Positions 524-18,310 of a stretch of 24,107 nucleotides of DNA are shown piece by piece. How positions within the stretch are numbered: the stretch's first letter is position 1; each line of letters starts with the position of its first letter. The notes beneath the pieces are model-generated. The model was not told the DNA's origin. It saw only the letters and a program-made list of their open reading frames with translations, and made no database searches. A program made the translations under genes and the position numbers. The DNA comes from a virus. The stretch lies in IMG/VR virus record IMGVR_UViG_3300044301_002174, positions 1-24,107 of that record. One strand, given 5' to 3'.

Positions 524-950
524 ATAGTATTTCCTCTGGTACAGATATACCTTCACTTTCTAAAAATATGCGAATAATATATGGATCGTAACCCCATACA
601 GATCCCCAATTTGAATCTTTTATAGGTATTCTTGTTCTTCCATATTTTGTACAAAGCTTACCGAGTTTTTTACTAATTTCACTTTTCTCATCATTACCGT
701 TCCACAAGTTACCCACTAGGTTATCTATCTTTTTTACTGTATAATAACCCTCCTCACCTTCTAACTTTTGTACTCTTTTAATAGCTTGTTCTGCTATTTT
801 TTTACCGTATGTTGCTATACCTTTATTCTCCTCTATTTGTAATTGATGCATTTGCTGTCTAGCAAGCATCTTTTTCTGTACTTGACTTATAGCCATGAAA
901 TCAGAATCATAGTTATTTAAGTCAGAATTAAACTTTCCTAAATCGGACAT
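513..950 (-). CDS. Hypothetical protein, 145 aa, possible antirepressor-like C-terminus
   Basis: First gene of the leftward operon, with its ATG about 14 nt after the expected start site of the promoter at 971-998. Residues 1-65 are helical and Gln/Lys-rich, probably coiled coil. Residues 70-145 carry YYTVKKIDNLVG and later SKKLGKLCTKYGRTRIPI...GSVWGYDPYIIRIFLE. That layout recalls the C-terminal domain of phage antirepressor and Rha-type proteins (GKKLSKLCKE...YGxVNxYPxEVL), which sit in regulatory or replication modules. The resemblance is from memory and weak; no catalytic motif is visible. Its last 11 nt overlap the ribbon-helix-helix gene. Treat the function as unknown. Confidence 0.72.
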   Translation of the reverse strand: MSDLGKFNSDLNNYDSDFMAISQVQKKMLARQQMHQLQIEENKGIATYGKKIAEQAIKRVQKLEGEEGYYTVKKIDNLVGNLWNGNDEKSEISKKLGKLCTKYGRTRIPIKDSNWGSVWGYDPYIIRIFLESEGISVPEEILYAQ

Positions 951-970
951 AATACGTATAAATTACATAT

Positions 971-998
971 ATTATACATAAAATTTAGTCAATATCAA
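971..998 (-). promoter_or_regulatory. Strong sigma70-type promoter, leftward
   Basis: Reading leftward there is TTGATA (998-993), a 16-bp spacer, and a perfect TATAAT (976-971). Transcription should start near 964, about 14 nt before the ATG of the 145 aa gene. The -35 box lies inside the last codons of the primase-helicase gene, so this promoter can drive the four leftward genes independently of the primase transcript. Confidence 0.62.
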
Positions 999-3519
999 TA
1001 ATCTTTTGGTCCTCATCTACACATGATTCATAAATCATTTTCGCTGAATCTAAAGTAGATATTGTTTCTAACTCAGTTTCAGTGTCCCAAAATTTATCAT
1101 CCTCATCTTCCTTATACACGGAAGATTGTGTGTCAAAACCCTCTTTCGTTCCAAGGGAAGGAGTTTCATTGACAATTTGTTTTGGCAAAACCTCCTTTGT
1201 GTCAAAACTATCCTCCTTATAGGTTTTGACAATTTCGGGGTTTTGACAATTTTTTTTGTCAATCGAATCCATTGATATAACTTTATTATTAGGTTTTAAC
1301 ACACTATTTCCACGCTTCGTGTATGGAACGATAGTTTTACCAACTACAGGAGCAATGTAATAAACAGCAGGTCTACCACCTTTAGAACTAACATTTACAG
1401 GAATATCTACTCTTTGAATAAGCTTATTCTTCTCTAATAATTGAAATATATATCTAAGGGTTCTCTTTCGTATAGAAGAACTTAAACCCAAGCCTATTGG
1501 ATCGTCTATTAAATCTTTAACACAGACAGGTTTATCACTTTTTCTAATAAAATTTAAAACGTCTACTTTTTTCTTTTCATGTGGATTGTCAGTCAACATA
1601 TCTTCTATGTAATGTTTTATCTCGTATGTGAAATCCTGCTTAAGAACAAATATCATTTTTGTACCCTCTCTACCCTCTCTAGACTTTTCAACATTAATTA
1701 ATCTTGAGTTAGCAGTTAAAGATTTTTCTAGTAGTTCAGCAGATGGAATCCTCGTCATATTCCAAGTCTCATCTACGGCTGCTCTAATACTAGAACTACC
1801 TCTAAAACTTCCTGTTTTTGTATTGTGATGTATCACAACTATGCAACAGGCTTCAAACCCAACTTTCTTGTCTGAAATACCATTATTTTTTACAAACTCT
1901 TTTAACGGCTTACTAAATTCCCTTCTATTTTCATCTACAGGATTACTTACACTACATCCGTCCAAGCTATCTATCACAACTAAATCATACTTCTCAGCAT
2001 TTTGAGTATCTTTAAACCATGAATACCATCCAAGATCAAAAGAGTTTTTGATACTTAAGTTTGGATCATCAGGATTAATCCCCATAAGCTCAAACTGATT
2101 TTTTATAATTGCTTCGTTCTGATCTCCATTTAACCAAAGAATCTTTTTTCTTTTTACAGGAACTTTTTCTCCATAAACATCAATAGGTTTTTCTTCCAAT
2201 ATATGTTTAATTACTGTCTGACACAGTGCAGTCTTACCTGTTCCACCATCTGCGTGAACTAAATAAGTAAGAGGTTTAGCCAGTATTCCTGGAATAATAT
2301 ACTCAATATTCTCTGTTTTAAGTTTACTTAGTGTAACGGGCTTACCTTCACCATCTCGTACAAAAGCATTATGAGAATCAGACATTCTTATAACGTCCTG
2401 TAGTCCACAACCACTTTCCTTAGATATTCTTCTAAGCTCTTGCTCTAAAAATGCAGGGTTTTTGTATATTTCCTTTGCTTCATCAACCTGCTCTACCAAA
2501 GATGAACCATTTAATATATTTGGACTAAGTTTTAAAGGTATAGAGTTTACATCTTCAATAATTTTATCTAAACCAGTATTCTTAAATCTTTTTCTCTCTG
2601 GATCGACCTCATCTGCTAACTCAATAAGATGTGCCATATTGTATCTCGCACCATCATTTCTCCATGTTCCATACCATCTTCTTTCACATGGATCTTCACT
2701 ACCATCCCAACAGTGTTCATAATCAGGATCTTTCTTAGACCACTCTCTCCATAAATCTAATCCTTCAATTCCAGGCAATTCATTGTTTATCATTGCCCCT
2801 ATTTCCCACCAATAGTCCTCACTATTTGGTCCTTTATATCCAATAACACTCAAGCAACCTTTTACAATGGCTACCCTCTCTTCCTTGGTACGTTTACTCC
2901 ATCTGTTATCTACATATTTAGTATCAACATCTTGATTGTTCTTTTTATATTGATCCTTCATCCTAGATAACAGCCACTCAGGAGCAGCAGGTACGTCAAA
3001 TAGATCGCCTTTTAGCTTATATGCACCCTTTCCTATACCTTCCTTGTAATATTCCCCTGCTATGACCCCTTGGCCTCCCCAGAGAACTTCCCAACCTTCA
3101 TGTCCAGCAGCAGTCTGACTTATAGACGCAACTTCACCTACTAGATCATCTGGTACTTTAAACAAAAACTTAGCAGCATTTTTTCTAAGAGAAGTAACCT
3201 TTGGAGCGTTTTTAAGATCCTTTCCCCACTTCTTTTCGATAGCACCCAAGTTCTTATCTACGTCAAATATCACAAGACCATCTGATTTTTGTCCTGTAAA
3301 AATGCCAATCGCCTTAAATTTATCTGGCTCTCTTTCAATCATCAAAGCTGAATCGTTAGCAGTTAATGATTGTTTCCATGCTTTACCGTAAGGAACTTTA
3401 CCGTCTGACACTCTATCTGGGCTTGATTCATTACGTTTTGGAAGTAGAACCCCCTGTGCGTATATAGGACAAGTTACCCAGTTAAGAGGGATTTCAGGAA
3501 TAAAATTTTTGCCATTCAT
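985..3519 (-). CDS. Bifunctional primase-helicase (PrimPol-like N-terminus, RecA/RepA-type ATPase)
   Basis: This 844 aa replication protein probably both primes and unwinds DNA. Residues 1-190 look like a PrimPol-type primase domain: GIFTGQ (72-77) leads into a strand with the metal-binding pair D86-V-D88 (FDVDKN). Residues 205-305 resemble a primase C-terminal linker domain rich in Trp (SEDYWWEIGAMI, RRWYGTWRNDG). Residues 400-620 form a RecA-fold ATPase with Walker A GGTGKT (425-430), Walker B LVVIDS (513-518) and a VVIHHN motif (561-566) like RepA/DnaB-type helicases. Residues 635-725 look like a winged helix, followed by a low-complexity acidic tail to 844 that may contact partners such as the SSB-like protein. 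It lies opposite that gene across divergent promoters. Its start ATG is at 3517-3519. Confidence 0.88.
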   Translation of the reverse strand: MNGKNFIPEIPLNWVTCPIYAQGVLLPKRNESSPDRVSDGKVPYGKAWKQSLTANDSALMIEREPDKFKAIGIFTGQKSDGLVIFDVDKNLGAIEKKWGKDLKNAPKVTSLRKNAAKFLFKVPDDLVGEVASISQTAAGHEGWEVLWGGQGVIAGEYYKEGIGKGAYKLKGDLFDVPAAPEWLLSRMKDQYKKNNQDVDTKYVDNRWSKRTKEERVAIVKGCLSVIGYKGPNSEDYWWEIGAMINNELPGIEGLDLWREWSKKDPDYEHCWDGSEDPCERRWYGTWRNDGARYNMAHLIELADEVDPERKRFKNTGLDKIIEDVNSIPLKLSPNILNGSSLVEQVDEAKEIYKNPAFLEQELRRISKESGCGLQDVIRMSDSHNAFVRDGEGKPVTLSKLKTENIEYIIPGILAKPLTYLVHADGGTGKTALCQTVIKHILEEKPIDVYGEKVPVKRKKILWLNGDQNEAIIKNQFELMGINPDDPNLSIKNSFDLGWYSWFKDTQNAEKYDLVVIDSLDGCSVSNPVDENRREFSKPLKEFVKNNGISDKKVGFEACCIVVIHHNTKTGSFRGSSSIRAAVDETWNMTRIPSAELLEKSLTANSRLINVEKSREGREGTKMIFVLKQDFTYEIKHYIEDMLTDNPHEKKKVDVLNFIRKSDKPVCVKDLIDDPIGLGLSSSIRKRTLRYIFQLLEKNKLIQRVDIPVNVSSKGGRPAVYYIAPVVGKTIVPYTKRGNSVLKPNNKVISMDSIDKKNCQNPEIVKTYKEDSFDTKEVLPKQIVNETPSLGTKEGFDTQSSVYKEDEDDKFWDTETELETISTLDSAKMIYESCVDEDQKIIDID

Positions 3520-3551
3520 GTGTTACAATACCTACTGTAGACTATATGTTG

Positions 3552-3585
3552 AAACCCTGAAGGAACTCCACCCTTTAGGGTTTTT
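3552..3585 (+). terminator. 12-bp hairpin plus T-tract between divergent promoters
   Basis: Positions 3552-3563 (AAACCCTGAAGG) pair with 3572-3583 (CCTTTAGGGTTT) over 12 bp including one G-U, with an 8-nt loop, followed by five Ts at 3581-3585. On the + strand this is a textbook intrinsic terminator, yet no + gene ends here. On the - strand it would form, with one A-C mismatch, the extreme 5' end of the primase-helicase mRNA if that starts near 3581. It may therefore block rightward antisense transcripts, cap the leftward mRNA, or both. Confidence 0.6.
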
Positions 3586-3587
3586 CT

Positions 3588-3616
3588 ATTATATACCATT
3601 GACATTGATTTGTCTA
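3588..3616 (-). promoter_or_regulatory. Sigma70-type promoter for the primase-helicase
   Basis: Reading leftward there is TAGACA (3616-3611), a 17-bp spacer and a perfect TATAAT (3593-3588). The expected start near 3581 gives a leader of about 60 nt to the ATG at 3519, beginning with the hairpin at 3552-3583. The promoter interdigitates with the rightward promoter at 3599-3627, the -35 box of each lying in the spacer of the other. Confidence 0.6.
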
Positions 3617-3627
3617 TGTACTACAAT
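3599..3627 (+). promoter_or_regulatory. Consensus sigma70-type promoter for the SSB-like gene
   Basis: A perfect TTGACA (3599-3604), a 17-bp spacer and TACAAT (3622-3627, within TACTACAATAG). The expected start near 3634 leaves about 30 nt to the ATG at 3665. The same TACTACAATAG block recurs at the promoter at 8984-9012. Confidence 0.7.
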
Positions 3628-3664
3628 AGTAATGCAACTCAGGCTTCTATAGCCAACACGCATT

Positions 3665-4267
3665 ATGCCTTTCATCTCAACTAAAGCGAGAGAAGACGCT
3701 ACTTCAGTAGGTAGCACAAAAGACAATTACTTGAATCCATCAAGTGTCAAAAGCGGACAAAAAGTACGTTTTACATTATTAGCAGAAGAGCCATTCATGT
3801 TCTACGAACTATGGGGCAATGATGTTAACGATCCCCAAAAACGTAAACCATTCCGTTTTTTAGAAGATCCAACACCAGAAGACATTGCAGTTAAACTCGG
3901 TGATGATTTTGTTAGATCTCTTACACGAGATGGCAAAGGTCCAGAAGCTTGCAAAATAGCTCATGCTGTTCCTGTTTATAACTACGACATGGAACGTGTA
4001 CAGGTATTTTCATGGACCCAAAAAACAGTTACTCAAGCACTGGATAACATAAGCCAATTAGAGGATTATGAAGATTCAATGACTGAATGTGATTTTTACT
4101 TATCTCGTGATGGAGAAGGTACAGACACTAGATACACTGTGCAAGCTGCCCCAAAGAAAAAGGCTATGGCTAAAACTGTAGACGAATCATGGGATGCAGC
4201 CCAAGATGAAGGATTTGATCTATCTCGTCTGATAGATGGCGGTGATCCTTTCAAAGAAGCTGAATAA
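3665..4267 (+). CDS. Probable single-stranded DNA-binding protein
   Basis: A 200 aa protein with the look of a phage OB-fold SSB. The middle is beta-rich with conserved-looking aromatics (KVRFTLLAEEPFMFYELW, KPFRF, PVYNYDMERVQVFSWTQKTV, CDFYLSRDGEG), as expected for stacking on DNA bases. The C-terminus is an acidic tail ending in DGGDPFKEAE, the kind of tail through which T7 gp2.5 and bacterial SSB recruit polymerase and helicase. It is transcribed from the consensus promoter at 3599 and faces the primase-helicase divergently, a usual partner. It is followed by a structured element and then by the nuclease gene. The fold assignment comes from pattern and context, not from an unmistakable motif. 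Confidence 0.58.
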   Translation: MPFISTKAREDATSVGSTKDNYLNPSSVKSGQKVRFTLLAEEPFMFYELWGNDVNDPQKRKPFRFLEDPTPEDIAVKLGDDFVRSLTRDGKGPEACKIAHAVPVYNYDMERVQVFSWTQKTVTQALDNISQLEDYEDSMTECDFYLSRDGEGTDTRYTVQAAPKKKAMAKTVDESWDAAQDEGFDLSRLIDGGDPFKEAE

Positions 4268-4278
4268 TCGCCATTCAT

Positions 4279-4375
4279 AAGAGTCAAACTATTCGGGCAT
4301 CATACTTTTTTCCCTACCTCGGGGTTTTAAGTTGAGGTATGTGTAAGTCCCGTTAGCTATTGACTCTTTTTTATT
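4279..4375 (+). ncRNA. Structured RNA element ending in an intrinsic terminator
   Basis: A perfect 9-bp stem pairs AAGAGTCAA (4279-4287) with TTGACTCTT (4360-4368), enclosing about 70 nt and followed by a T-rich run to 4375. Inside, CGGG (4294-4297) can pair with CCCG (4349-4352), then CATAC (4301-4305) with GTATG (4337-4341). An alternative inner hairpin is TACCTC (4315-4320) with GAGGTA (4334-4339), mutually exclusive with the CATAC pairing. Such a branched domain closed by the terminator stem suggests a 3'-UTR-derived small RNA or a switching element between the SSB-like and nuclease genes. It has no tRNA signature. Pairings are by eye; no folding energy was computed. Confidence 0.45.
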
Positions 4376-4387
4376 TTGCTATATAGT
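4360..4387 (+). promoter_or_regulatory. Possible promoter for the nuclease gene
   Basis: TTGACT (4360-4365), a 16-bp spacer and TATAGT (4382-4387), each box one base from consensus. The -35 box is the 3' arm of the terminator stem of the preceding element. A start near 4394 would make the mRNA leaderless for the ATG at 4392, or would force use of the second ATG at 4419. Confidence 0.42.
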
Positions 4388-4391
4388 AATT

Positions 4392-5234
4392 ATGGGAACG
4401 TGTATTTATTATCCACTTATGGGAACGCTAGACAAACAAAACGCACTAGCCTCTCTACGAAAGTGGAACTTAATTCAAGATAATAGTGGACCGTACAGAG
4501 TCTACCGTGATGGTGACGATAATATATATCACTCAGTTACACACATACTAAAAGAAACCGCAGAACCCCATACAAAAGATGCTCTCGAAAAATGGTTACA
4601 AAGACCTGACTCCCCTATGGAACGTGATATTGCCTGTGAAAGAGGAAGGCTGGCTCACGCTAATGCAGAATTTATCCTCAAACTGGCAGCCAAATTCTCC
4701 AGGCAAAACGCAAATAAGCGAGGTATATGGAGAACAGGTGATGATGGATTGGAACGCTGCCCGAAAAAAGTTACGCAATGGGCTCTCCAGAAAGCAGCCG
4801 AATCCGCACCTCGTGTTAACTGGAGTGCGTCAGGCTACGCAAGAGGTCTACGATCATTCATACTGGAACGTGTAACCGCCATTCATGCAGTTGAATTTAG
4901 TGTTTACAAAGCAGGATATGGATTTGCTGGTACAGCAGACGCTCTATTGGACATAGATGGAAAAGGGCCATTCATAGTAGATTGGAAAACAGCAAAAGAA
5001 GCTAGGTCAGATGACATGATAAACCAATTCTGTCATCAGCTTGGAGCGTACAGTCTGGGTCTCAAGAGTCTCACAGGAATACAAGCGAAAAAAGGTGCAG
5101 TTGTGGTAGCTCGCAGAAGTGGAAAACCACAAATAAAACTCCTCTCAGAAATAGAACTAAGAGGAGCAGAATGTGTATTTTTAGATAGAGTGGATCGTTA
5201 CCACAAACAACTTAAAGAGTTAGCGGTTGTTTAA
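4392..5234 (+). CDS. PD-(D/E)XK nuclease, RecB/Cas4-type exonuclease
   Basis: A 280 aa protein with the ordered motifs of the RecB-like nuclease fold. ERGRLAHANAE (83-93) supplies the first-helix histidine, FAGTADALLDIDG (178-190) the first catalytic Asp (D183), IVDWKT (195-200) the D197-x-K199 metal-binding pair, and QLGAYSLGL (216-224) the downstream QxxxY helix. Phage members of this family act as 5' or recombination exonucleases working with an SSB or annealing protein, which fits the SSB-like gene upstream. There are two candidate starts, ATG 4392 and ATG 4419, each within a TATGGGAACG repeat. The domain begins well after both, and a promoter-like sequence overlaps the first. The gene abuts the convergent leftward cluster at 5234/5235 with no spacer or terminator. 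Confidence 0.82.
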   Translation: MGTCIYYPLMGTLDKQNALASLRKWNLIQDNSGPYRVYRDGDDNIYHSVTHILKETAEPHTKDALEKWLQRPDSPMERDIACERGRLAHANAEFILKLAAKFSRQNANKRGIWRTGDDGLERCPKKVTQWALQKAAESAPRVNWSASGYARGLRSFILERVTAIHAVEFSVYKAGYGFAGTADALLDIDGKGPFIVDWKTAKEARSDDMINQFCHQLGAYSLGLKSLTGIQAKKGAVVVARRSGKPQIKLLSEIELRGAECVFLDRVDRYHKQLKELAVV

Positions 5235-5456
5235 TTAAGGATAATAGAGATCCTCGATTCTTTTTTCAGTACGTTTTGAATGTTCTACATAATCAGATAA
5301 ATGCGAGGTGCATATCTCTTCTACAGGATCAGTAAAGAATCCGTCATCTAACACATTTAGAACAACATTTTCAGATAGTGGATCGCCTGTCGGACAAATT
5401 TCTTCATCTTCAGTGTCCACTGTAACTAAAAGAGTTACTAAAACTTTTTTAATCAA
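5235..5456 (-). CDS. Hypothetical acidic protein, 73 aa (TTG start)
   Basis: Unrecognised and acidic, with motifs such as VTVDTEDEEICPTGDPL. I place the start at TTG 5454-5456 rather than at an upstream in-frame ATG at 5492. A strong GGAGGTGA lies about 8 nt before the TTG on the - strand, and this start overlaps the previous gene's stop by 8 nt, as elsewhere in the train. The frame from TTG reads IKKVLVTLLVTVDTED after the initiator. Last gene of the leftward train, it meets the nuclease gene end-to-end with no intervening terminator, so antisense read-through between the two is likely. Confidence 0.65.
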   Translation of the reverse strand: MIKKVLVTLLVTVDTEDEEICPTGDPLSENVVLNVLDDGFFTDPVEEICTSHLSDYVEHSKRTEKRIEDLYYP

Positions 5457-5673
5457 GTGGTTCACCTCCAATTTTTTCATAACAAATTTCACATAAACAA
5501 CTATTACCTTTTAAGTAATAATCAGAATCCCAAAATAACTCATAAGTACTATCAATCATTTGACATTCGTTGCAAGTGTTTAATTCATATTTTTCAGAAT
5601 TAAGAGTATAGAATCTTTTTTCTTGTGGTTCGAGATCACAGTAGCTCCTATACATAATTTGTTTAATTTTCAT
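5449..5673 (-). CDS. Small putative zinc-ribbon protein, 74 aa
   Basis: Contains CNEC near residues 34-37 and CLCEIC near 59-64, spaced about 22 residues apart, which is compatible with a four-cysteine zinc knuckle. The remainder is aromatic and charged, with no membrane segment. Such small zinc ribbons are common among early phage proteins that touch host transcription or restriction functions, but nothing specific is recognisable. The start ATG at 5671-5673 overlaps the upstream stop, and the gene overlaps the downstream TTG start by 8 nt. Confidence 0.68.
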   Translation of the reverse strand: MKIKQIMYRSYCDLEPQEKRFYTLNSEKYELNTCNECQMIDSTYELFWDSDYYLKGNSCLCEICYEKIGGEPLD

Positions 5674-5912
5674 AATCCGTCATGCCATTTTGTACCGAAG
5701 CTCGACTTAACTTCGTCATCTGTTGGTTCGTAATCGTAGAAAGCATCTTCCCACTCTTTTTTATCGTCATCAGGTATGCTATCCCACTTGAGAGAATCTT
5801 CATTAAATTCTTCAATCTGTTCAATAACTTCAGCGTGACTAAAGTTACGATTAATAGCATCATGCCCAAAAGCAAGTTCATAAATTACTTCAATAAATTC
5901 TTTATCCGTCAT
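5670..5912 (-). CDS. Hypothetical acidic protein, 80 aa
   Basis: Unrecognised. It begins MTDKEFIEVIYELAFG and is helical and strongly acidic (IEEFNEDSLKWDSIPDDDKKEWEDAF), reminiscent of DNA-mimic-like early phage proteins, though only in composition. I chose the ATG at 5910-5912 over an upstream in-frame ATG at 5996 because a GGAGA sequence sits just before it and the upstream stretch belongs to the 47 aa gene in another frame. It overlaps that gene by 11 nt and the next start by 4 nt. Confidence 0.66.
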   Translation of the reverse strand: MTDKEFIEVIYELAFGHDAINRNFSHAEVIEQIEEFNEDSLKWDSIPDDDKKEWEDAFYDYEPTDDEVKSSFGTKWHDGL

Positions 5913-6045
5913 AATCTGTCTCCATAGGATAATGTTTGTCATCTGGATCGGGATATATACCCGAATCCTGCAAATCTTTGATTGCATCATCTTCACGTTG
6001 GCTATCTAACGCAGATTGATGGTTGTGTAAGAAAGAATTAGACAT
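5902..6045 (-). CDS. Hypothetical micro-protein, 47 aa
   Basis: A short frame from ATG 6043-6045 to TAA 5902-5904, beginning MSNSFLHNHQSALDSQREDD and ending YPMETDYDG. It is acidic, probably disordered, and unlike anything I know. Support comes from its fit: it overlaps the upstream stop by 8 nt and the downstream start by 11 nt, filling what would otherwise be a gap of over 120 bases in an otherwise gapless train. Confidence 0.55.
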   Translation of the reverse strand: MSNSFLHNHQSALDSQREDDAIKDLQDSGIYPDPDDKHYPMETDYDG

Positions 6046-6277
6046 TTTTAAAATCCCCTTTTTTTGGATAAGTTTCTTCAATGATGTGAGTAGCTAAAGA
6101 GTCTATATATGATGCTATTTTGTAGCCATCATGATGACTAATAGGTTCCCAAGCATATTGTTCTAGATGTTCATGTTGATCTTCTTCTGATAATTCAAAG
6201 AAATCATCATCTAAAGGTTCATAGAGAAACTGCATAGATGCCCATTGAAAACATTTTTGTTGGTACGTTAAATTCAT
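6038..6277 (-). CDS. Hypothetical acidic protein, 79 aa
   Basis: Unrecognised. Acidic and aromatic, with LYEPLDDDFFELSEEDQHEHLEQY and a following SHHDGYKIASYIDSLATHIIEE helix. The ATG at 6275-6277 overlaps the stop of the HTH gene upstream by 4 nt, so it is almost certainly co-translated. The clustered His residues do not form a known metal motif. Confidence 0.68.
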   Translation of the reverse strand: MNLTYQQKCFQWASMQFLYEPLDDDFFELSEEDQHEHLEQYAWEPISHHDGYKIASYIDSLATHIIEETYPKKGDFKNV

Positions 6278-6621
6278 ACTTTTTTAAACCTCGTAAGTAA
6301 TTTTGAATATAGTTCGATACCTTTAAAATATGAGATAGAATCTCCGTCAGCCAGTGCAGCTTCCGCAGTATCTAACACATTATCTAAAATGGTATCTTTA
6401 TTGTCTTTAATCTTTTTATCTGGATCGGGTTTAGCCTGTTCCCATTTATATAGATTAAAGGAGTCTTTGTAATATCTATATGCCGTTGACTTAGGAATCT
6501 CAAAATCAGTATGCAGTATATCGCATATATCCAAACGGGTTAATTTTTCTTTTGGATCTTTTTTGGATTCGTTATCTACCAGACATTTATAGATGAAATT
6601 TTCAGCTTCCTCTTTAGTCAC
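6274..6621 (-). CDS. Helix-turn-helix protein resembling a small terminase or phage regulator, 115 aa
   Basis: Residues about 25-50 (KLTRLDICDILHTDFEIPKSTAYRYYKDSF) read as a helix-turn-helix with the turn at the EIPKSTAYRYY recognition helix. A charged linker (KPDPDKKIKDNKD) follows, then an amphipathic helix pair (DNVLDTAEAALADGDSISYFKGIELYSKLLTR). A DNA-binding HTH followed by an oligomerising helical hairpin is the layout of small terminase subunits. The more convincing TerS lies at 10343-10795, so this one may be a paralogue turned regulator or an origin-binding protein. It overlaps neighbours by 4 and 8 nt. Confidence 0.65.
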   Translation of the reverse strand: MTKEEAENFIYKCLVDNESKKDPKEKLTRLDICDILHTDFEIPKSTAYRYYKDSFNLYKWEQAKPDPDKKIKDNKDTILDNVLDTAEAALADGDSISYFKGIELYSKLLTRFKKV

Positions 6622-6859
6622 CGATTTTTTCCTTTAATTCTTTTATCTGGTTCGTTTGAACAGAGATAAGATCTATTATCTGACCTATGACCTTCTTATC
6701 ATCTAAGTTAATCTCATGCTGATAAGTTATGTCCTTTTTATTTTCTTCGAGCAGATGTTTAATCTGTTCTCTTACATATAAGTTGAGTTCAATAATTTGA
6801 CTCTCAAGAGATTTGATGGATTCGAGTACTTTTTTAAAGTCTCTTTCATTTTCGTTCAT
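6614..6859 (-). CDS. Hypothetical coiled-coil protein, 81 aa
   Basis: Heptad-like spacing of Leu/Ile runs through most of the protein (KVLESIKSLESQIIELNLYVREQIKHLL and VIGQIIDLISVQTNQIKELKEKI), predicting two long helices and probably an oligomer. No enzyme motif is present. It is the first gene of the leftward train, immediately beside the repeat-rich region 6897-7050, so its promoter must lie in or next to those repeats. The start at 6857-6859 is the only sensible ATG. Confidence 0.66.
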   Translation of the reverse strand: MNENERDFKKVLESIKSLESQIIELNLYVREQIKHLLEENKKDITYQHEINLDDKKVIGQIIDLISVQTNQIKELKEKIGD

Positions 6860-6886
6860 TGTGGGTGAATGATATAGAACACTACA

Positions 6887-6915
6887 ATATTACATCAATC
6901 GCCATTCATAAGCAA
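6887..6915 (-). promoter_or_regulatory. Possible promoter for the leftward small-gene train
   Basis: Reading leftward there is TTGCTT (6915-6910), a 17-bp spacer and TAATAT (6892-6887), giving a leader of about 20 nt to the ATG at 6859. An alternative is TTGATG (6898-6893), 16 bp, TATATC (6876-6871), which would make the mRNA almost leaderless. Both overlap the first CATTCAT repeat region. Confidence 0.35.
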
Positions 6916-7050
6916 CCTAAAAATTCTCATTCATTAATTCTCAGTAAGAATTCTCAGAATTTTCATTCATTATTGACATTCATAACTGACTAGGTAATGT
7001 TGGATCGCTCATTCATTATTTTTCATTCATCATGCGAACTCACATTCATA
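6897..7050 (+). repeat. Direct-repeat array: seven CATTCAT and three AATTCTCA copies
   Basis: CATTCAT occurs at 6903, 6928, 6964, 6977, 7010, 7024 and 7043, all in the same orientation; several continue as CATTCATT. AATTCTCA occurs at 6922, 6936 and 6949, spaced 14 and 13 bp. The region is AT-rich, lies where leftward and rightward early genes diverge, and also contains a TGGATCG (7001-7007) and a TTGACA-type promoter. Iterated short same-strand words in an AT-rich intergenic region are typical of iteron origins or multi-site operators. Which of these it is cannot be told from sequence alone. Confidence 0.6.
6973..7000 (+). promoter_or_regulatory. Rightward promoter embedded in the repeat array
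   Basis: A perfect TTGACA (6973-6978), a 16-bp spacer and TAATGT (6995-7000). A CATTCAT copy begins on the last two bases of the -35 box and fills the start of the spacer, and TGGATCG begins one base after the -10 box. A protein binding CATTCAT would therefore occlude this promoter. Confidence 0.42.
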
Positions 7051-7220
7051 AATTTTTTAAGTATAGTCATGTATCTATACCCATTCAAGATTTATTTTTT
7101 ATTTTAATAGTTCTACAAAAAATTTCAAATAATTATAATGAACAGTTTTCAGACAATCTATGTTATAGAGCAGACAAATTAATAGATAAAATTTTAATAC
7201 AAATAGAATTGAATAAATAG
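7032..7220 (+). CDS. Doubtful small ORF, 62 aa
   Basis: This frame begins within the repeat array (ATG 7032) and encodes a hydrophobic, Ile/Asn/Lys-rich peptide (IPIQDLFFILIVLQKISNNYNEQ). No ribosome-binding site precedes it. It lies about 25 nt after the expected start of the promoter at 6973, so it could be expressed as a short-leader message. Composition is close to what random AT-rich DNA would give, so it may equally be leader sequence for the DUF932 gene. Confidence 0.32.
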   Translation: MRTHIHKFFKYSHVSIPIQDLFFILIVLQKISNNYNEQFSDNLCYRADKLIDKILIQIELNK

Positions 7221-7221
7221 G

Positions 7222-7250
7222 TTGCTATCTCATACATATTAATGTAGTAT
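7222..7250 (+). promoter_or_regulatory. Possible promoter for the DUF932 gene
   Basis: TTGCTA (7222-7227), a 17-bp spacer and TAGTAT (7245-7250), about 24 nt before the expected leader end at ATG 7281. The block TTAATGTAGTATT (7239-7251) is repeated exactly at 9401-9413, in another intergenic region. Confidence 0.36.
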
Positions 7251-7280
7251 TTTAAATGTAATCTAATTTTTACACCACAA

Positions 7281-8342
7281 ATGAAAAATTCAAACAAAAT
7301 TGATTCTCTTGTTTCATTTACAGAAACAGATTTAAGAGTGGATCGACCCTATCAATCAGAAAACTTTACTAGAACAAATCTAGGTTATCAACGTCAGGGA
7401 AATGAAAATCTAATTTCTACACCATTTAATAGGACTGATGATCTAGAAACAATTTTATTTAAGACTAATGTTTTAAATGAGCCTGAAGTATTACCTACAT
7501 TTACAAATTTCAATGACACTTCTTATGAATGTCCAAACAGTAAAGCTATTTTCAGTAAGAAAATTGGTAAGGTAATTTCTACAGTATCTAACACATATGA
7601 GTTAGTAAAGCATGATGTAATACTTGATGCTATACAACCTAACTTAAATTTCTTAGAAGTAGAGCACATTATCCCTATGAATAATACAGCTAGGGTTTTC
7701 ATTATATGTGCTATTAAAAATAGTGATATGGAAGTCTCAAACGGTGACGCTATCCGTAGAAGAATGATTTTTGTTAACTCAATGGACGGAAGTTATAGCT
7801 TCAAAGTGATTCAATCGGACGTGCGATTATGGTGTTTCAATCAGATGGGTTCGATACAAAATTCTAAAAATAAGATGGTTTTCAAACATTCAAAAGGGGT
7901 TAACGGATACTTACAGAATTTACCCGCGTGGTTAAAATTTCAACGTGATGATCTAGCTAATTCAATCGAAGAATTTAAAGCCATGCGTAATACATCATGT
8001 TCATCTGATATGCTTAAAAATTTATTCTTGCATAGCTTCCAAGATAAGTTAATAGGTCAGATAACAGATAAAGATACTAAGGAAAAAAGAAATAAAGAAT
8101 TTAAGGATATTAATAAAGAATGGATCGATGTAAAAAGAAACTTTCAAATTGAAGCTAATGGTAATCAACCTAATTTGTTTAACGCATTTAACGCTATAAC
8201 CGAATATGAAACACACTCTGAATCTAGTAGGGTTGATTCAACAGAGTCAGCACGCATAAGGTTTGAGAGCCTTATACGAGGTCGTTGTGCGGATCGTATT
8301 CAAAAGGCTAGACGTGAATGTTTAAGACTAACTACTGTATAG
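7281..8342 (+). CDS. DUF932 family phage/plasmid protein, 353 aa
   Basis: Resembles the DUF932 (phage/plasmid-like TIGR03299) family. Recognisable stretches are STVSNTYELVKHDVILDAI (about 101-119), the block around GDAIRRRMIFVNSMDGSYSF and RLWCFNQM near the middle, a following FKHSKG, and a C-terminal NLFNAFNAITEYETH helix. The family is widespread in phages and conjugative elements, usually in early or accessory regions; its biochemical activity is not established, though some annotations link it to recombination or DNA repair. It follows a possible promoter at 7222 and leads a rightward group of three genes ending at the terminator at 8855. TGGATCG occurs twice within it. Confidence 0.8.
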   Translation: MKNSNKIDSLVSFTETDLRVDRPYQSENFTRTNLGYQRQGNENLISTPFNRTDDLETILFKTNVLNEPEVLPTFTNFNDTSYECPNSKAIFSKKIGKVISTVSNTYELVKHDVILDAIQPNLNFLEVEHIIPMNNTARVFIICAIKNSDMEVSNGDAIRRRMIFVNSMDGSYSFKVIQSDVRLWCFNQMGSIQNSKNKMVFKHSKGVNGYLQNLPAWLKFQRDDLANSIEEFKAMRNTSCSSDMLKNLFLHSFQDKLIGQITDKDTKEKRNKEFKDINKEWIDVKRNFQIEANGNQPNLFNAFNAITEYETHSESSRVDSTESARIRFESLIRGRCADRIQKARRECLRLTTV

Positions 8343-8355
8343 AGGATTATTAAAA

Positions 8356-8643
8356 ATGATAGAAACATTCAAAACACTTAAAAATAACGATTTAATAAGG
8401 GTATCTATGACAGATGCCCTAATCGGTAAACGTGAAAAATTACTTTCAGTTGGTCGTAGATCCCATTCAAAAAAATATAATGTTGAGAAATTGACATTAT
8501 ACCAAACAAATAAAGATGGATCGGTATGCAAACATTCATGTAAGTATTATTTTTATTATCGGCCTGAATCTAATTTTCTTTCATTAGCAATATCTAATAT
8601 GGCCTGCTCATTTACCAGTATTGAAAAATTAGAGACTGTCTAA
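8356..8643 (+). CDS. Hypothetical protein, 95 aa
   Basis: Unrecognised. A basic, beta-leaning protein (MIETFKTLKNNDLIRVSMTD at the start, then KLTLYQTNKDG and KYYFYYRPES) with three Cys that do not form a standard zinc motif. The start follows the DUF932 stop by 13 nt with an AGAGGA sequence about 8 nt upstream of the ATG, so it is co-transcribed with DUF932. No membrane segment is evident. Confidence 0.62.
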   Translation: MIETFKTLKNNDLIRVSMTDALIGKREKLLSVGRRSHSKKYNVEKLTLYQTNKDGSVCKHSCKYYFYYRPESNFLSLAISNMACSFTSIEKLETV

Positions 8644-8649
8644 CACATT

Positions 8650-8844
8650 ATGTATTTTATCAACAAAATTTCATTCAAAAATTCTAACTTTGGATTGTTT
8701 GATATTGGTTCTAATTGGAGAGCTAAAAATCATTCACACTTAATTAGTAAAATTGAATCATTCATTAATTGTAAAATCACTTTTATTGAATATCAAAAAA
8801 CCATTCAAAATGAAATAACTTGTATTGATACTTTCAACTATTAA
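8650..8844 (+). CDS. Hypothetical protein, 64 aa
   Basis: Unrecognised, Ile/Asn/Ser-rich and weakly basic (MYFINKISFKNSNFGLFDIG at the start). Placed 6 nt after the previous stop and directly before an intrinsic terminator, a position that supports a real terminal gene of the DUF932 operon. There is no clear ribosome-binding site, and composition alone would not distinguish it from chance coding. Confidence 0.48.
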   Translation: MYFINKISFKNSNFGLFDIGSNWRAKNHSHLISKIESFINCKITFIEYQKTIQNEITCIDTFNY

Positions 8845-8854
8845 TACTTTTATT

Positions 8855-8885
8855 AATCCTGATGCTAAAAACGTCAGGATTTTTT
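8855..8885 (+). terminator. Intrinsic terminator after the DUF932 operon
   Basis: A 10-bp stem pairs 8855-8864 (AATCCTGATG) with 8872-8881 (CGTCAGGATT) around a 7-nt loop, followed by Ts at 8881-8885. Rightward only. Confidence 0.82.
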
Positions 8886-8983
8886 ATTGAGTCTCAATGA
8901 GTCCAAGTGAGATTGTAATAATTTAATGATCCTTTAGGTATGTTTATACCTTTTAAAAATGTAGTTATATCAATATATAAACC

Positions 8984-9012
8984 TTTACATATATTCTGTT
9001 AGATACTACAAT
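8984..9012 (+). promoter_or_regulatory. Strong sigma70-type promoter
   Basis: TTTACA (8984-8989), a 17-bp spacer and TACAAT (9007-9012, within ATACTACAATAG). The expected start near 9019 leaves about 22 nt to the ATG at 9041. It shares the TACTACAATAG block with the promoter at 3599 and drives a single gene bounded by the terminator at 9339. Confidence 0.66.
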
Positions 9013-9040
9013 AGAAAAGTAGTTAACCATCTTTATTAAC

Positions 9041-9307
9041 ATGACTATTTCAAAAAACATTCAACTTGAACTTCCATTAAATGCTAAGTATAAAGTTACT
9101 CACTTTATGGATTGTGGTGCATGGATCGATCCAAACCCTACAGTAGAATATTTTGAGTTTCACCATGAAATGGAAGATTATGTTACAGAGGAAACTCAAA
9201 GAAGAATAGATTATACAGTTCAACATAGTCCATTCACTATTAGTGAAAATGAGCTTAAAGAAATTGAAGAATATGAGTACTCAATGGTCAAAATTGAGGA
9301 ACTTTAA
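9041..9307 (+). CDS. Hypothetical acidic protein, 88 aa
   Basis: Unrecognised. N-terminal NIQLELPLNAKYKVTHFMDCG looks beta-rich; the C-terminal half is strongly acidic (EFHHEMEDYVTEETQRR and ENELKEIEEYEYS). It is a stand-alone unit with its own promoter and terminator, which among phage accessory genes often marks a host-takeover or morон-like function; that last point is inference from layout only. The 12-bp palindrome TGGATCGATCCA lies at 9122-9133. Confidence 0.66.
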   Translation: MTISKNIQLELPLNAKYKVTHFMDCGAWIDPNPTVEYFEFHHEMEDYVTEETQRRIDYTVQHSPFTISENELKEIEEYEYSMVKIEEL

Positions 9308-10342: not shown

Positions 10343-10795
10343 CTACTTTTTCTTATCTTCAACGCTAATAGATAGCTGTGGAGCGTTAATGTTGATATTC
10401 TCTACACTCTCCCCTAGTACTCTACCAAGTGAATCCAGCACTTGAGCAGCAGTTTGAAGCTGTCCTTTCTTCATAGCCTGGTTAAATAGCTTCATTCTCA
10501 TACCCTGCAACCTACCAATCATTTTCTCTCTATCCTTTTCCCAATCCTCATCGTTCCAGGATTTTACCTTTCTCCAATCAGTCCAGGCTGTCTCGATGCC
10601 TATTCCCTCTGTAGCAGCGTGTTCCAGTACTAATTGTCTGGTAGTTTTACCTTCCAACTGTCTTTTATAAAGTTTTTGCCTTCTTGCTTCAATTACTACA
10701 TCAGGTTGTCTCTTGCCACACACCCTGCCATCCTGCTTATTAGCTCGCTCGGATGTAAATTGACCATTTGGATTACGAAGAATAGAATCAGCCAC
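10343..10795 (-). CDS. Terminase small subunit (probable)
   Basis: A 150 aa protein with the layout of phage small terminases, which recognise the packaging site and hand DNA to the large subunit. The N-terminus is basic and flexible. An HTH-like segment spans about 49-80 (TTRQLVLEHAATEGIGIETAWTDWRKVKSW in two helices). The oligomerisation helices follow at 90-130 (REKMIGRLQGMRMKLFNQAMKKGQLQTAAQVLDSLGRVLG), and the C-terminal strand ININAPQLSISVEDKK is the type that contacts the portal or large subunit. It is the only morphogenesis gene on the - strand, divergent from the large terminase with a 99-nt gap. The gap contains an inverted GACTAAA (10797-10803) and TTTAGTC (10842-10848). Confidence 0.72.
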   Translation of the reverse strand: MADSILRNPNGQFTSERANKQDGRVCGKRQPDVVIEARRQKLYKRQLEGKTTRQLVLEHAATEGIGIETAWTDWRKVKSWNDEDWEKDREKMIGRLQGMRMKLFNQAMKKGQLQTAAQVLDSLGRVLGESVENININAPQLSISVEDKKK

Positions 10796-10894: not shown

Positions 10895-12151
10895 ATGAGC
10901 ACAAAAACAGCCGAAAAACTATCACTTAGATGGGCACAGGGGGAGGTGTTTAACGCAGAACAAAGATTCAGAGTCCTCGTAGCTGGCAGAAGATTCGGAA
11001 AATCCTACTTATCCTGCATCGAGCTACTAAAAGCAGCAATAAACCGCCCAGGCGAAACATATTTCTACTGTGCCCCAACCTATCGCATGGCAAAAGACAT
11101 AGCCTGGAAAGAAATCAAAAAACTAATCCCACCCCAATGGATAGCCTCCAAAAATGAAACCGACCTAAAAATAGAACTAATTAATGGATCGCTAATCGAA
11201 CTCAAAGGAACAGAAAATGCCATGACCCTGCGTGGTAGAAGCCTCGCTGGAGTAGTACTTGACGAAGCAGCCTTCATGGATTCCGATGTCTGGTTTCAGG
11301 TAATCAGACCAGCCCTCGCAGACAAACAAGGTTGGGCACTTTTTATATCCACACCCGATGGAACTGCAAGCTGGTTCTACGATTTATGGTGTTACGTTCC
11401 AGAGGACACATCAGGAGATTGGAAACGCTGGAGCTTTACCACCATAGATGGAGGCAACGTACCAGAAGAAGAAGTCGAAGCAGCAAGATCCCAACTGGAC
11501 ATAAGAACATTCAAGCAGGAGTTCGAGGCAAGTTTCGAGAATCTTACTGGTCTCGTTGCAGTCTCCTTTTCAGATTCCAACATTTCTAGCGAAGCGGAGG
11601 ACATAAACATCGCCCCACTACTTCTGGGAGTTGACTTTAACGTAGACCCACTCTGCGGAATCTGTGCAGTCCGCTACCGAGAATACCTCTATGTCTTCGA
11701 TGAAATAATTATGACGGGTGGTGCAACAACCTGGGATTTTGCAGAAGAAGTAACCAACCGATATGGTGTGGAACGCAGAGTAATAGCTTGCCCCGACCCC
11801 ACGGGTGCTGCCAGAAAAACATCAGGAGTAGGTTCAACGGACCACACTATCCTACGCAGAAGTGGATTTACTGTGTCATCTCCCAGAGCCCCCTGGAAAA
11901 TACGAGATAAAGTAACATCCGTAAACACAGCACTATATGACGCAGCAGGAGAAAGACGAACTTTAATCCACCCACGCTGTAAAGAATTAATAAAATCCCT
12001 CCGAACCCTCACATACGCTCCAAACACAGGTATGCCAAACAAAAACCTTGGAGTTGACCACGCATTTGACGCTTTCGGCTACCTCTGCCTCCAACAATTT
12101 AACCTTGCAAAACCAGAGACACTAGGTCAAACTTCGTTTAGACTATATTAA
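10895..12151 (+). CDS. terL: Terminase large subunit (DNA-packaging ATPase and nuclease)
   Basis: A 418 aa large terminase, full length for the family. The ATPase half has the Walker A-like loop VAGRRFGKSYLS (29-40), Walker B VVLDEAAF (120-127) with D123-E124, and the coupling motif ISTPDGT (151-157). The RNase H-like nuclease half shows LLGVDFNVDP (243-252) with D247, ACPDPTG (298-304) with D301, and VDHAFDAFGY (387-396) with D389, the three metal-binding positions. It packages DNA through the portal in concert with the small subunit. Only 99 nt separate it from the divergent small-subunit gene, and no strong rightward -35/-10 pair was found there. Confidence 0.95.
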   Translation: MSTKTAEKLSLRWAQGEVFNAEQRFRVLVAGRRFGKSYLSCIELLKAAINRPGETYFYCAPTYRMAKDIAWKEIKKLIPPQWIASKNETDLKIELINGSLIELKGTENAMTLRGRSLAGVVLDEAAFMDSDVWFQVIRPALADKQGWALFISTPDGTASWFYDLWCYVPEDTSGDWKRWSFTTIDGGNVPEEEVEAARSQLDIRTFKQEFEASFENLTGLVAVSFSDSNISSEAEDINIAPLLLGVDFNVDPLCGICAVRYREYLYVFDEIIMTGGATTWDFAEEVTNRYGVERRVIACPDPTGAARKTSGVGSTDHTILRRSGFTVSSPRAPWKIRDKVTSVNTALYDAAGERRTLIHPRCKELIKSLRTLTYAPNTGMPNKNLGVDHAFDAFGYLCLQQFNLAKPETLGQTSFRLY

Positions 12152-15082: not shown

Positions 15083-15116
15083 TTTGATACAATAGTAGGT
15101 AAGTACATACATTATT

Positions 15117-16145: not shown

Positions 16146-16150
16146 ATCGT

Positions 16151-16190
16151 TAATTTCTGTGAAATTAGCCCCCCTTATCTGTGATTAGGG
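16151..16190 (+). promoter_or_regulatory. Twin hairpins in the leader of the capsid gene
   Basis: Two adjacent stems share a TGT loop. TAATTTC/GAAATTA spans 16151-16167 (7 bp, perfect) and CCCTTATC/GATTAGGG spans 16172-16190 (7 of 8 pairs). No T-run follows the second, so this is not a normal terminator. Between scaffold stop and capsid start, the pair could be an RNA processing or stabilising element raising capsid expression. Confidence 0.4.
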
Positions 16191-16219
16191 TATCGCAAAA
16201 CTTAAAAAGGTAAATCTGA

Positions 16220-17302
16220 ATGGCTGCTCCGTTTCAGAATTATACTGGCGGTGTCCTACTAGCGGACATTGTCAAAAGAAATAATTTTAGCAACTACGTT
16301 TCTCAAGCTATTAAAGAACGTAGTCTATTTATACAGTCTGGTGCTGTAGTTCGTAATGCTTTACTTGACGCAAGTTCAGGTGGAACAAGAATACAAGTTC
16401 CAGAATTTAACCCAATCGCACCAACTGAGGAAATCTTAGATGGTACAGGTACTTGGGGAACAAGTGGTGCTGGTTATCTAACACCTCAAAAGATCGGTAC
16501 AGATACGCAGATTGCAACTATCTGTCATAGAGGTTTTGCTTACGCTGTTGATGATGTAGCTATTTTAGCTGCTGGTGAAGATCCAATGGGTCACATCAGA
16601 AATCAGCTTGCAGATGCTATCAATAAATTGAACTCTGTTCGTTTATTTGAAACACTAACTGGTCTATTCCATACTGCTCTTAATTCCCATCGTCTTGAGA
16701 AGCAATTAGCTGGTTCTGGTTCAACTGCCGAAGCAAACTATCTTTCTGCTGCTACTGTTGCAGAAGCTCGCTCTGTTTTAGGAGAAAGAGGAGAAGAACT
16801 TGATCTTCTTATCGTTCATCCTTCTGTTGCTTACTACTTATATCAAGTAGGTCTACTAACATTCTCAACATCTGCTCTATCAACTGGTGGTGCAGTAACT
16901 TGGGGTGGTGGCGGTGTCGGTGTTAACGAAAGAAGCATCGGTGAATTTGCTGGTTGCAGAGTTGTCATTGATTCTCAGGTAAACACTAACGATCCTACAA
17001 CTACCGGTAATCGTCAGGAGTTCCGTTGCTACTTAATGAAGTCAGGAACAATTCTTGAAGGTGTTCAGTCTGAGCTAGGTATTGAAGCAGAAAGAAACAT
17101 CTTATCTAAGCAAGATGTTATGTCTGTTGATTACCACAGTGCTTATCACGTTATGGGAACTAAGTGGACTAACGCTGCTGATAACCCTGCTAACTCAGCA
17201 CTAAGAACTGGTTCTAACTGGTCTGCTACATACGATATTGATCAAATTCCAATGGTTGAAATCTTTGTAAACACACCATTAGACAATGGTCTAAAGTCTT
17301 AA
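16220..17302 (+). CDS. Major capsid protein (HK97-fold)
   Basis: A 360 aa coat protein with features of the HK97 fold. The N-arm opens MAAPFQNYTGGVLLADIVKR. The E-loop region holds SSGGTRIQVPEFNPIAPTEE. The spine/P-domain helix contains HIRNQLADAINKLNSVRLFETL, and the A-domain has LDLLIVHPSVAYYLYQVGLL, followed by the loop GGGGVGVNERSIGEFAGCRVVIDSQV. Length and gene order (portal, scaffold, coat) agree. It has its own separate scaffold and no delta-domain extension. It is preceded by twin hairpins and followed by a clear terminator, as is usual for the most highly expressed gene. Confidence 0.92.
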   Translation: MAAPFQNYTGGVLLADIVKRNNFSNYVSQAIKERSLFIQSGAVVRNALLDASSGGTRIQVPEFNPIAPTEEILDGTGTWGTSGAGYLTPQKIGTDTQIATICHRGFAYAVDDVAILAAGEDPMGHIRNQLADAINKLNSVRLFETLTGLFHTALNSHRLEKQLAGSGSTAEANYLSAATVAEARSVLGERGEELDLLIVHPSVAYYLYQVGLLTFSTSALSTGGAVTWGGGGVGVNERSIGEFAGCRVVIDSQVNTNDPTTTGNRQEFRCYLMKSGTILEGVQSELGIEAERNILSKQDVMSVDYHSAYHVMGTKWTNAADNPANSALRTGSNWSATYDIDQIPMVEIFVNTPLDNGLKS

Positions 17303-17330
17303 TTTATATTAAGATTAAATTAGTGGTCAG

Positions 17331-17360
17331 AAACCTCATCAATTATTGGTGGGGTTTTTT
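17331..17360 (+). terminator. Intrinsic terminator after the capsid gene
   Basis: An 11-bp stem pairs 17332-17342 (AACCTCATCAA) with 17346-17356 (TTGGTGGGGTT, two G-U) around a TTA loop, followed by four Ts and CTTT. It would cut off most transcription after the coat gene and lower the level of tail genes. Confidence 0.88.
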
Positions 17361-17374
17361 CTTTACGCTACAAT
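17346..17374 (+). promoter_or_regulatory. Possible promoter overlapping the terminator
   Basis: TTGGTG (17346-17351), a 17-bp spacer and TACAAT (17369-17374). The -35 box is the 3' arm of the terminator stem, the same arrangement as at 4360-4387. An expected start near 17381 leaves 16 nt to the GTG at 17397. Confidence 0.4.
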
Positions 17375-17396
17375 AAAACTAAATTACCTATTAATC

Positions 17397-17927
17397 GTGG
17401 CAGCTACCATAATTGCAACTATAAAAAGTGAAACTGCTAATAGCTATGTCACTTTATCTGAATCTAACGATTACTTTGATACTTCTCCAGACTCTTCAAC
17501 CTGGACGAACAAAACTGATGACCAAAAGAAAAGAGCACTAATATCTGCTACAAGATGGATCGAAACTTTAGTATTTTATGGCGATAGATGTGATGAGAGT
17601 CAGGCACTTAAATTTCCTAGAACTAATTATCAGGTAGATGGAGTTGAATTAGCTTGTACAACCATTCCGAATAGTATTAAATATGCACAATATGAATTAG
17701 CTAGAGCATTGGCAAATGATACTGATGCAATTACTGGTACTACTGGTAAAGATGGAAACTTTTCTGAAGTAAAGTTAGGAGATATACAGGTTAAATATAA
17801 TACTGATAGTCAGGGAACTGGTTCTGTTAATAATATTTTAGATGTTTACCCTTGGTTACAAAGTTACCTTGGAGCCTATATGCTAGGTGGAGCAGGAAGT
17901 TTTCAAATGAGGGTAGTTAGAGGATAA
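17397..17927 (+). CDS. Head-tail connector (adaptor) protein, 176 aa
   Basis: Reads AATIIATIKSETANSYVTLS after a GTG initiator at 17397. The ETANSYVTLSESNDYFDT block, a helix around KKRALISATRWIET, the KFPRTNYQVDG segment and IKYAQYELARALAN match the gp6-type connector family (also annotated as DnaT-like in phages), which forms a ring below the portal. I reject the in-frame ATG at 17346 because it lies in the terminator stem, upstream of the expected start of transcription. It overlaps the next gene by one base (TAATG). Confidence 0.78.
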   Translation: MAATIIATIKSETANSYVTLSESNDYFDTSPDSSTWTNKTDDQKKRALISATRWIETLVFYGDRCDESQALKFPRTNYQVDGVELACTTIPNSIKYAQYELARALANDTDAITGTTGKDGNFSEVKLGDIQVKYNTDSQGTGSVNNILDVYPWLQSYLGAYMLGGAGSFQMRVVRG

Positions 17928-18310
17928 TGGCAGGTCAACTAGATTCACTATTAAAAAGCGTAGCCAAACAAGTGGTGTCTCAACTGGGAGACTCGTTAGA
18001 TACAACAATTATTTATACCAGAAAGCTATCTACGTCATATAACACATCTACTGGTGCAGTAACTACCAGTGATACAAGCTACACAATAAAAGTACCCGTA
18101 GAATTTGTACAATCAACTGAAGAGTCTGGTTATCAGGAAAATATAGCTCGTATTTTTATAACACCTGATCTTATAGGAGATAGTCAACCGCTATTATCAG
18201 ATGAGATTACTCTTACATTTTCTGGATCGACCAGAGTTGCAAAGATTACAGATGTAAGAACTTTGCGTGGTGGTCAGGAGTATTTATTCAGAGTTGACGT
18301 TATTTTCTAA
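17927..18310 (+). CDS. Head closure / head-tail joining protein, 127 aa
   Basis: Small beta-barrel-type protein. The N-terminal helix (LDSLLKSVAKQVVSQLGDSL) is followed by strands DTTIIYTRKLSTSY, YTIKVPVEFVQST, ARIFITPDLIG and EITLTFSGSTRVAKITDVRTL, ending YLFRVDVIF. The strand order and the final RGGQEYLFRVDV resemble SPP1 gp16/HK97 gp7-type stoppers, which close the capsid after packaging. Position directly after the connector fits. It overlaps the next gene by one base (TAATG). The exact neck component is not certain from sequence alone. Confidence 0.66.
   Translation: MAGQLDSLLKSVAKQVVSQLGDSLDTTIIYTRKLSTSYNTSTGAVTTSDTSYTIKVPVEFVQSTEESGYQENIARIFITPDLIGDSQPLLSDEITLTFSGSTRVAKITDVRTLRGGQEYLFRVDVIF

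Follow-up and report, generated by a model that had tools for sequence, protein, structure and literature searches.

Why would a short DNA word accumulate on one strand of a phage genome, irrespective of the direction of the genes that carry it? This question is raised by an IMG/VR genome fragment of 24,107 bases from a marine tailed phage (the window below, i.e., the whole stretch of DNA analysed), in which the preliminary description had counted, by eye, 15 copies of TGGATCG on the plus strand and two on the minus strand. All 15 plus copies are present, with one position corrected from 8518 to 8517, and the minus copies at 9127 and 20433 are the only ones (Table 1). The earlier estimate of about one copy per strand by chance agrees with an order-2 Markov model, which expects 0.93 copies on the plus and 0.63 on the minus strand and in which TGGATCG ranks first among all 7-mers of the window for over-representation. 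A higher-order model able to predict the count had been named as a possible refutation. The order-5 model does give 12 copies; this is no refutation, because the hexamers TGGATC and GGATCG themselves consist of these copies.

Table 1. Genes, words and repeats located in the window
Feature	Position	Strand	Remark
PrimPol-type primase with RecA-like ATPase/helicase domain	985..3519	-	phrog_906, phrog_1156, AAA_25, PriCT_2
Single-strand DNA-binding protein (SSB)	3665..4267	+	weak match, phrog_1607, 2.7e-5
PD-(D/E)XK exonuclease, RecB/MGME1/RecE family	4392..5234	+	presence tracks island
Probable small terminase	10343..10795	-	inferred from position and sequence appearance; no family match
Large terminase (terL)	10895..12151	+	phrog_2, 1.6e-43; reference point for position profiles
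Polar island, dense same-orientation TGGNNCG	2886..9128	+	19 plus, 0 minus between 2900 and 8900
CATTCA(T) direct-repeat array	6903..7088	+	8 in 186 bp; intergenic gap between divergent genes
TGGATCG	582..588	+	
TGGATCG	1498..1504	+	
TGGATCG	2599..2605	+	
TGGATCG	5191..5197	+	exonuclease gene end
TGGATCG	5379..5385	+	leftward gene
TGGATCG	5944..5950	+	leftward gene
TGGATCG	6421..6427	+	leftward gene
TGGATCG	7001..7007	+	within intergenic CATTCAT array
TGGATCG	7339..7345	+	DUF932 gene
TGGATCG	8121..8127	+	DUF932 gene
TGGATCG	8517..8523	+	earlier given as 8518
TGGATCG	9122..9128	+	within palindrome TGGATCGATCCA; other half is the minus copy at 9127
TGGATCG	11185..11191	+	terL +290; found in most relatives
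TGGATCG	17556..17562	+	late genes
TGGATCG	18223..18229	+	late genes
TGGATCG	20433..20439	-	
TGGAGCG	3202..3208	+	island
TGGAACG	3990..3996	+	island
TGGACCG	4487..4493	+	island
TGGAACG	4618..4624	+	island
TGGAACG	4750..4756	+	island
TGGAACG	4864..4870	+	island; CATTCAT on either side, 4855 and 4880
TGGAGCG	5042..5048	+	island
TGGTTCG	5626..5632	+	island
TGGTTCG	5724..5730	+	island
TGGTACG	6261..6267	+	island
TGGTTCG	6648..6654	+	island

A gapped word independent of gene direction and protein

Synonymous-codon shuffling of the window genes, with the proteins and codon usage kept (n = 500), yields 1.7 ± 1.3 copies of TGGATCG and never more than 6, against 14 observed. The plus copies are divided among rightward genes (8), leftward genes (6) and an intergenic gap (1). 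Since the count exceeds all 500 shuffles and the copies are split in this manner, both protein sequence and gene direction are discarded as the cause, as had been proposed. Another word, TGGCGGT, is over-represented on the plus strand as well (7 vs. 1; 21045-21069, 16909, 4237); it is probably a codon effect, because several copies lie in glycine-rich stretches of structural genes.

For comparison, 40 IMG/VR relatives were collected via the large terminase, primase and exonuclease and oriented to the window, giving 41 contigs of 870 kb in all; relatives by terL were the best 80 per query out of more than 600 in IMG/VR. These contigs hold 496 plus and 85 minus copies of TGGATCG, the expectation being 37 and 29. 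The heptamer is therefore real, but it was under-defined: the motif is TGGNNCG, with TGGATCG as its commonest form. Variants of the two middle bases mostly stay enriched (plus/minus, 41 contigs: TGGAACG 346/42, TGGAGCG 169/17, TGGTTCG 143/31, TGGGTCG 62/11), and changes in the outer bases generally abolish the enrichment (0-1.8 times the expectation in the same contigs). A fixed heptamer is thus ruled out, with the outer five bases fixed and the middle two free. TGGNNCG came first in an unbiased scan of gapped words (634 vs. 124), and contigs with little TGGATCG hold other members of the set. A longer motif was considered and rejected, the flanks being weakly informative and drifting between clades. 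TGGNNCG is independently the top gapped word (173 vs. 28.5) in a clade with an exonuclease of only 47% identity.

Synonymous shuffles of 16 contigs gave 158 ± 12 plus and 153 ± 11 minus sites, compared with 737 and 371 observed (z = 21-50), which together with the shuffles of the window rules out a protein or codon effect. Relative to the gene strand, the same contigs carry 567 sense and 541 antisense sites; these counts are even, and the polarity therefore follows the genome strand and not the gene. A signal at the RNA level is unlikely, as the same genomic strand carries the word in genes of both directions. It might still be supposed that the word is a side effect of mutational bias, codon usage or common descent, and some sites within terL are indeed simply orthologous copies. 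The requirement for the outer five bases with free middle ones, the failure of the codon shuffles and the independent recurrence in the clade with the divergent exonuclease make this explanation highly improbable.

The phage group likely comprises marine cyanobacterial viruses with picocyanobacteria as hosts. This assignment is based on one protein of a TGGNNCG-bearing relative, G029, with 436 phage matches, all to cyanophages or marine/uncultured viruses, and on related structural genes found in a Prochlorococcus single cell. SAR202, Sphingobacteriales and Verrucomicrobiota MAGs (L272, L274 and L275, respectively) also include contigs of the cyanophage-like group, which are probably mis-binned. 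G029 (IMGVR_UViG_3300046171_000070) encodes, at oriented positions 15586-19434, a large tail protein with a stretch near its N-terminus that appears by eye to be Hint/intein-like (CFTGDTPVSIPGG...TIRVHNAG). Among isolated phages, no clear TGGNNCG enrichment was found in MED4-117, S-2L, S-CBS4 and a pelagiphage; cyanophage KBS-S-2A shows a slight one (77 vs. 47).

The polar island left of terL

The whole window contains 36 plus and 18 minus TGGNNCG sites, and the polarity is most pronounced in an island situated between the replication genes and the terminase. In 25 contigs, the window included, the 6 kb upstream of terL that correspond to window positions 2900-8900 hold 16-45 plus sites (median 19) and 0-6 minus sites. 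When each orthologous site is counted once, the island zone contains 226 plus and 32 minus sites (p = 4e-37). The ratio of plus to minus sites is 135:11 in rightward genes, 119:14 in leftward genes and 30:3 in gaps. Between -7 and -3.5 kb from the terL start, plus density climbs to about 5 sites per kb, with minus sites nearly absent; within the 2 kb nearest terL, TGGNNCG density is low. The island sites point 5'->3' towards terL. Both the window and dozens of relatives thus lend strong support to the proposal that the word is a genuine DNA signal whose strand polarity does not depend on the direction of the genes.

The persistence of copies, another point raised earlier, was confirmed for their density, which stays constant, and not for their positions, which turn over, many being private to a few genomes. 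The spacing of TGGNNCG is as random, with no regularity detected. A clean flip of polarity, for which a check had been suggested, was not found: right of terL, 51 vs. 37 sites remain after de-duplication (p = 0.17). A reversal just upstream of terL, at first taken for Chi geometry around a cut, was withdrawn as it amounts to about five orthologous terL sites, and no flip is claimed because the terL sites are mostly orthologous copies.

The orientation of the island towards the terminase genes brings to mind a packaging, segregation or chromosome-handling site, at which a phage DNA-binding protein would recognise a KOPS-like or packaging-zone signal. A candidate is encoded in the island itself (6274-6621, minus strand), namely a conserved protein predicted to be helix-turn-helix-like. 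This reading is quite improbable: neither fold nor family searches gave a significant match for the protein, which is undetected in some island-bearing contigs, and there are relatives with the same terminase and structural genes that lack the island. The roughly 19 copies dispersed over 6 kb differ from the single localised genome-end site expected of cos or pac. The protein in question is all-helical, has 115 residues and an invariant TAYRYY motif, and is conserved in many island-bearing relatives.

Strong conservation is seen in the gap (10796-10894) that separates the divergent terminase genes, with the elements GACTAAA, ATAACCC, TTTAGTCGA and ACTACATGAG; GACTAAA and TTTAGTC make up an inverted repeat, and the gap is a candidate promoter and/or packaging site. 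Many IMG/VR contigs end no further than about 150 bases from the terL start (window 10839-11001), apparently due to an assembly break at a conserved stretch. No sharp terminus is seen at the contig ends. A cos end deduced from the contig breaks was rejected, as the breaks clustering near the terL start do not coincide at a single position and have the appearance of assembly breaks.

Association with the primase-SSB-exonuclease module

The sequence of the phage exonuclease matches MGME1. Its predicted model (pLDDT 87) is closest to MGME1, followed by the RecE, Cas4, AdnAB and AddAB nucleases. A complete-looking relative also encodes a family-A DNA polymerase. Profile searches detected no annealase in the island phages.

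A relative of 41,291 bases (L273 / QCMG01000013.1), with terL 81% and portal 89% identical, is present in the single-cell genome of Prochlorococcus sp. AG-418-M08. In this phage, an O-like initiator, an Erf annealase, a nuclease and RusA replace the PrimPol, SSB and MGME1-like exonuclease, the lambda-like module being swapped in cleanly behind the conserved structural genes. It has no polar island, its TGGNNCG sites being 2.6 times the expectation for both strands together and without polarity (16 vs. 20). A similar-looking short protein with ATAYRWY, comparable to the TAYRYY protein described above, is encoded there.

Sister-clade viruses were chosen by a terL like that of this relative, and their terL genes are 91-99% identical. 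All seven exonuclease-positive contigs (L401, L422, L426, L431, L434, L441 and L451) bear the island, with 11-17 plus and 0-4 minus sites upstream of terL, and they have SSB and primase too where the contig reaches. None of the 18 contigs without detectable exonuclease has the island (0-2 plus sites); eight of the 18, as well as the single-cell phage, extend far enough to have shown the gene. L447 has 10 sites and is too short to show presence or absence of the exonuclease. In the relatives, the island thus comes and goes with the primase-SSB-exonuclease module.

Polarity is also seen in another word, CATTCAT (often CCATTCAT), which is found 326 times on the plus and 64 times on the minus strand of the 41 contigs. 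It is confined to the island zone and nearly absent from late genes. Arrays of three to eight CATTCA direct repeats precede the DUF932 gene in many relatives, with no reverse clusters. Clustered direct repeats in an intergenic gap are the arrangement of an iteron array, and the CATTCAT array looks like a candidate iteron array or origin. CATTCAT is separate from the TGGNNCG signal, because it occurs in relatives both with and without the island.

These findings bear on the main rival to the reading preferred below, according to which the phage PrimPol-helicase would load or prime at one-strand TGGNNCG during strand-asymmetric replication from the CATTCAT-array origin. The island accompanies the replication module and is missing where the O-like initiator takes its place, and the density peak, at -6.5 to -4 kb, adjoins the CATTCA array. 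This explanation is nonetheless rather unlikely. A single polarity is maintained on both sides of the candidate origin, which priming leaves unexplained, and CATTCAT also occurs without the island. The copies are gathered in a 6 kb island and not spread over the replicon, with a strand switch, as lagging-strand priming requires. TGGNNCG, with its two-base gap and five fixed positions, exceeds the known primase sites (about 3 nt) in length. GC skew at four-fold sites gave no clear origin.

Of the roles listed in the preliminary description, a Chi-like one fits best, since place and polarity resemble those of lambdoid Chi; a clean flip and host enrichment were not found. TGGNNCG is tentatively read as a polar, Chi-like signal in the processing of DNA ends or in recombination, which may act via the phage's own replication-recombination module, and the chance that this is correct is put at a little less than even. 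The word is short, non-palindromic and over-represented (737 vs. 158), biased in orientation and located between replication genes and terminase. An excess of Chi is seen in those lambdoid coliphages that do not inhibit RecBCD; its sites gather between replication genes and terminase, most strongly near the origin where the phage lacks a recombinase (PMC3784561). RecBCD reads Chi on entry from its 3' side (PMC5959072), so that plus sites left of the terminase would suit an enzyme arriving from the side of the terminase. For an exonuclease that reads a short strand-specific word there is a precedent in lambda Exo, whose pausing at GGCGA, a sequence in cosNL, is strand-specific (PMC7496540).

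In this Chi-like mechanism, TGGNNCG would be an orientation-dependent signal that alters a helicase/nuclease coming from the terminase side. The enzyme would enter a DNA end near the terminase or packaging site, move left and meet 5'-TGGNNCG-3' in the active orientation, where it might switch from destroying that end to preserving or recombining it. Preserved ends could let a phage in which no annealase is detected make or rescue concatemers. Besides the host counts given below, several observations speak against the Chi-like reading: the contig ends give no sharp terminus; density is low next to terL, and its peak lies around the candidate origin, 3.5-7 kb from terL; the terL side has no reversed island after removal of duplicates (the 51 vs. 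37 above); and the module is also the replication module, so that its association with the island equally fits a replication signal.

The earlier question of whether the word is common to the host genome was answered in the negative: it is neither enriched nor polar in the picocyanobacterial genomes tested. In Prochlorococcus AG-418-M08 (438 kb), TGGNNCG occurs 76/56 times against 82/53 in codon shuffles, with no polarity. Strand counts in its contigs are 54:42 and 27:23, showing no KOPS-like polarity of chromosome arms. In 17 samples of 20 kb (16 of them Cyanobiaceae or cyanobacterial), observed/expected ratios are 0.3-1.6, and in 61 Cyanobiaceae genomes TGGAACG does not consistently outnumber its reversed-word control.

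These data reduce the probability that TGGNNCG is the Chi of picocyanobacterial RecBCD, kept by phages lacking an annealase. Marine Prochlorococcus and Synechococcus do carry recBCD (PMC5101192), the RecBCD-type Chi words GCTGGTGG and GCTGGCGC share a TGG core (PMC5959072), and the island-free relatives carry Erf. In the AG-418-M08 genome, the word stays at the codon-shuffle expectation, and the ratios of the 20-kb samples and the TGGAACG counts of the 61 genomes likewise leave a host Chi improbable. Chi is not necessarily skewed in every species. The word is said to work like Chi and is not filed as a member of Chi, because host over-representation is lacking.

A product of the phage module, i.e., the RecB/MGME1-like exonuclease together with the PrimPol-helicase, would be a more likely reader than host RecBCD, given that TGGNNCG is not enriched in the host genomes. 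The stronger proposal is doubtful: a private phage-encoded Chi-like system, in which the exonuclease (with the PrimPol-helicase) would read TGGNNCG one way, independently of host RecBCD-Chi, and the polar code would be retained by lineages that share only about 45% identity in their exonucleases.

Resemblance to known polar words

Chi-like control is known so far as a code of the host, copied or evaded by its phages. TGGNNCG is a polar code that tracks a phage module over dozens of marine viruses, with hundreds more in the collection, and is not enriched in picocyanobacterial genomes. If confirmed, it would be either a phage-encoded code for the processing of ends or a sequence-defined signal in the origin zone of PrimPol phages, and the island could mark the replication module and genome end in uncultured viruses.

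HIP1 (GCGATCGC; PMC4390886) is over-represented in cyanobacteria and contains GATCG. Unlike the phage motif, of which TGGAACG and TGGAGCG are equally part, it is palindromic and genome-wide; the phage word is not this palindrome, and TCGATCG has 0 occurrences. KOPS (FtsK-orienting polar sequences) are likewise asymmetric one-orientation words pointing to a locus, but they are host-wide and lead to dif, whereas TGGNNCG shows no polarity in the host genomes tested. The GGCGA of lambda Exo (PMC7496540) is also a short strand-specific word, slowing a phage PD-(D/E)XK exonuclease near the packaging end. A single strong site is reported there, compared with an island of about 19 copies, and lambda Exo is set against an MGME1-like exonuclease.

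The closest likeness is to lambdoid Chi (GCTGGTGG; Bobay, Touchon and Rocha 2013, PMC3784561), which is short, non-palindromic, over-represented and located between replication genes and terminase, and whose presence depends on the recombination genes of the phage. TGGNNCG differs in being a gapped, degenerate and different word, not enriched in the tested hosts, and in its 3-5 sites per kb compared with about 0.2. The other Chi words, GCTGGCGC of P. syringae, AGCGG of B. subtilis and GAAGCGG of S. aureus, are short, species-specific and orientation-dependent (PMC5959072, PMC5101192). The TGG core is common to TGGNNCG and the words of RecBCD type. E. coli Chi is enriched and polarised in the genome of its host, unlike TGGNNCG in the hosts tested. 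Bacterial Chi sequences are features of host genomes read by host enzymes, whereas TGGNNCG is specific to a phage lineage.
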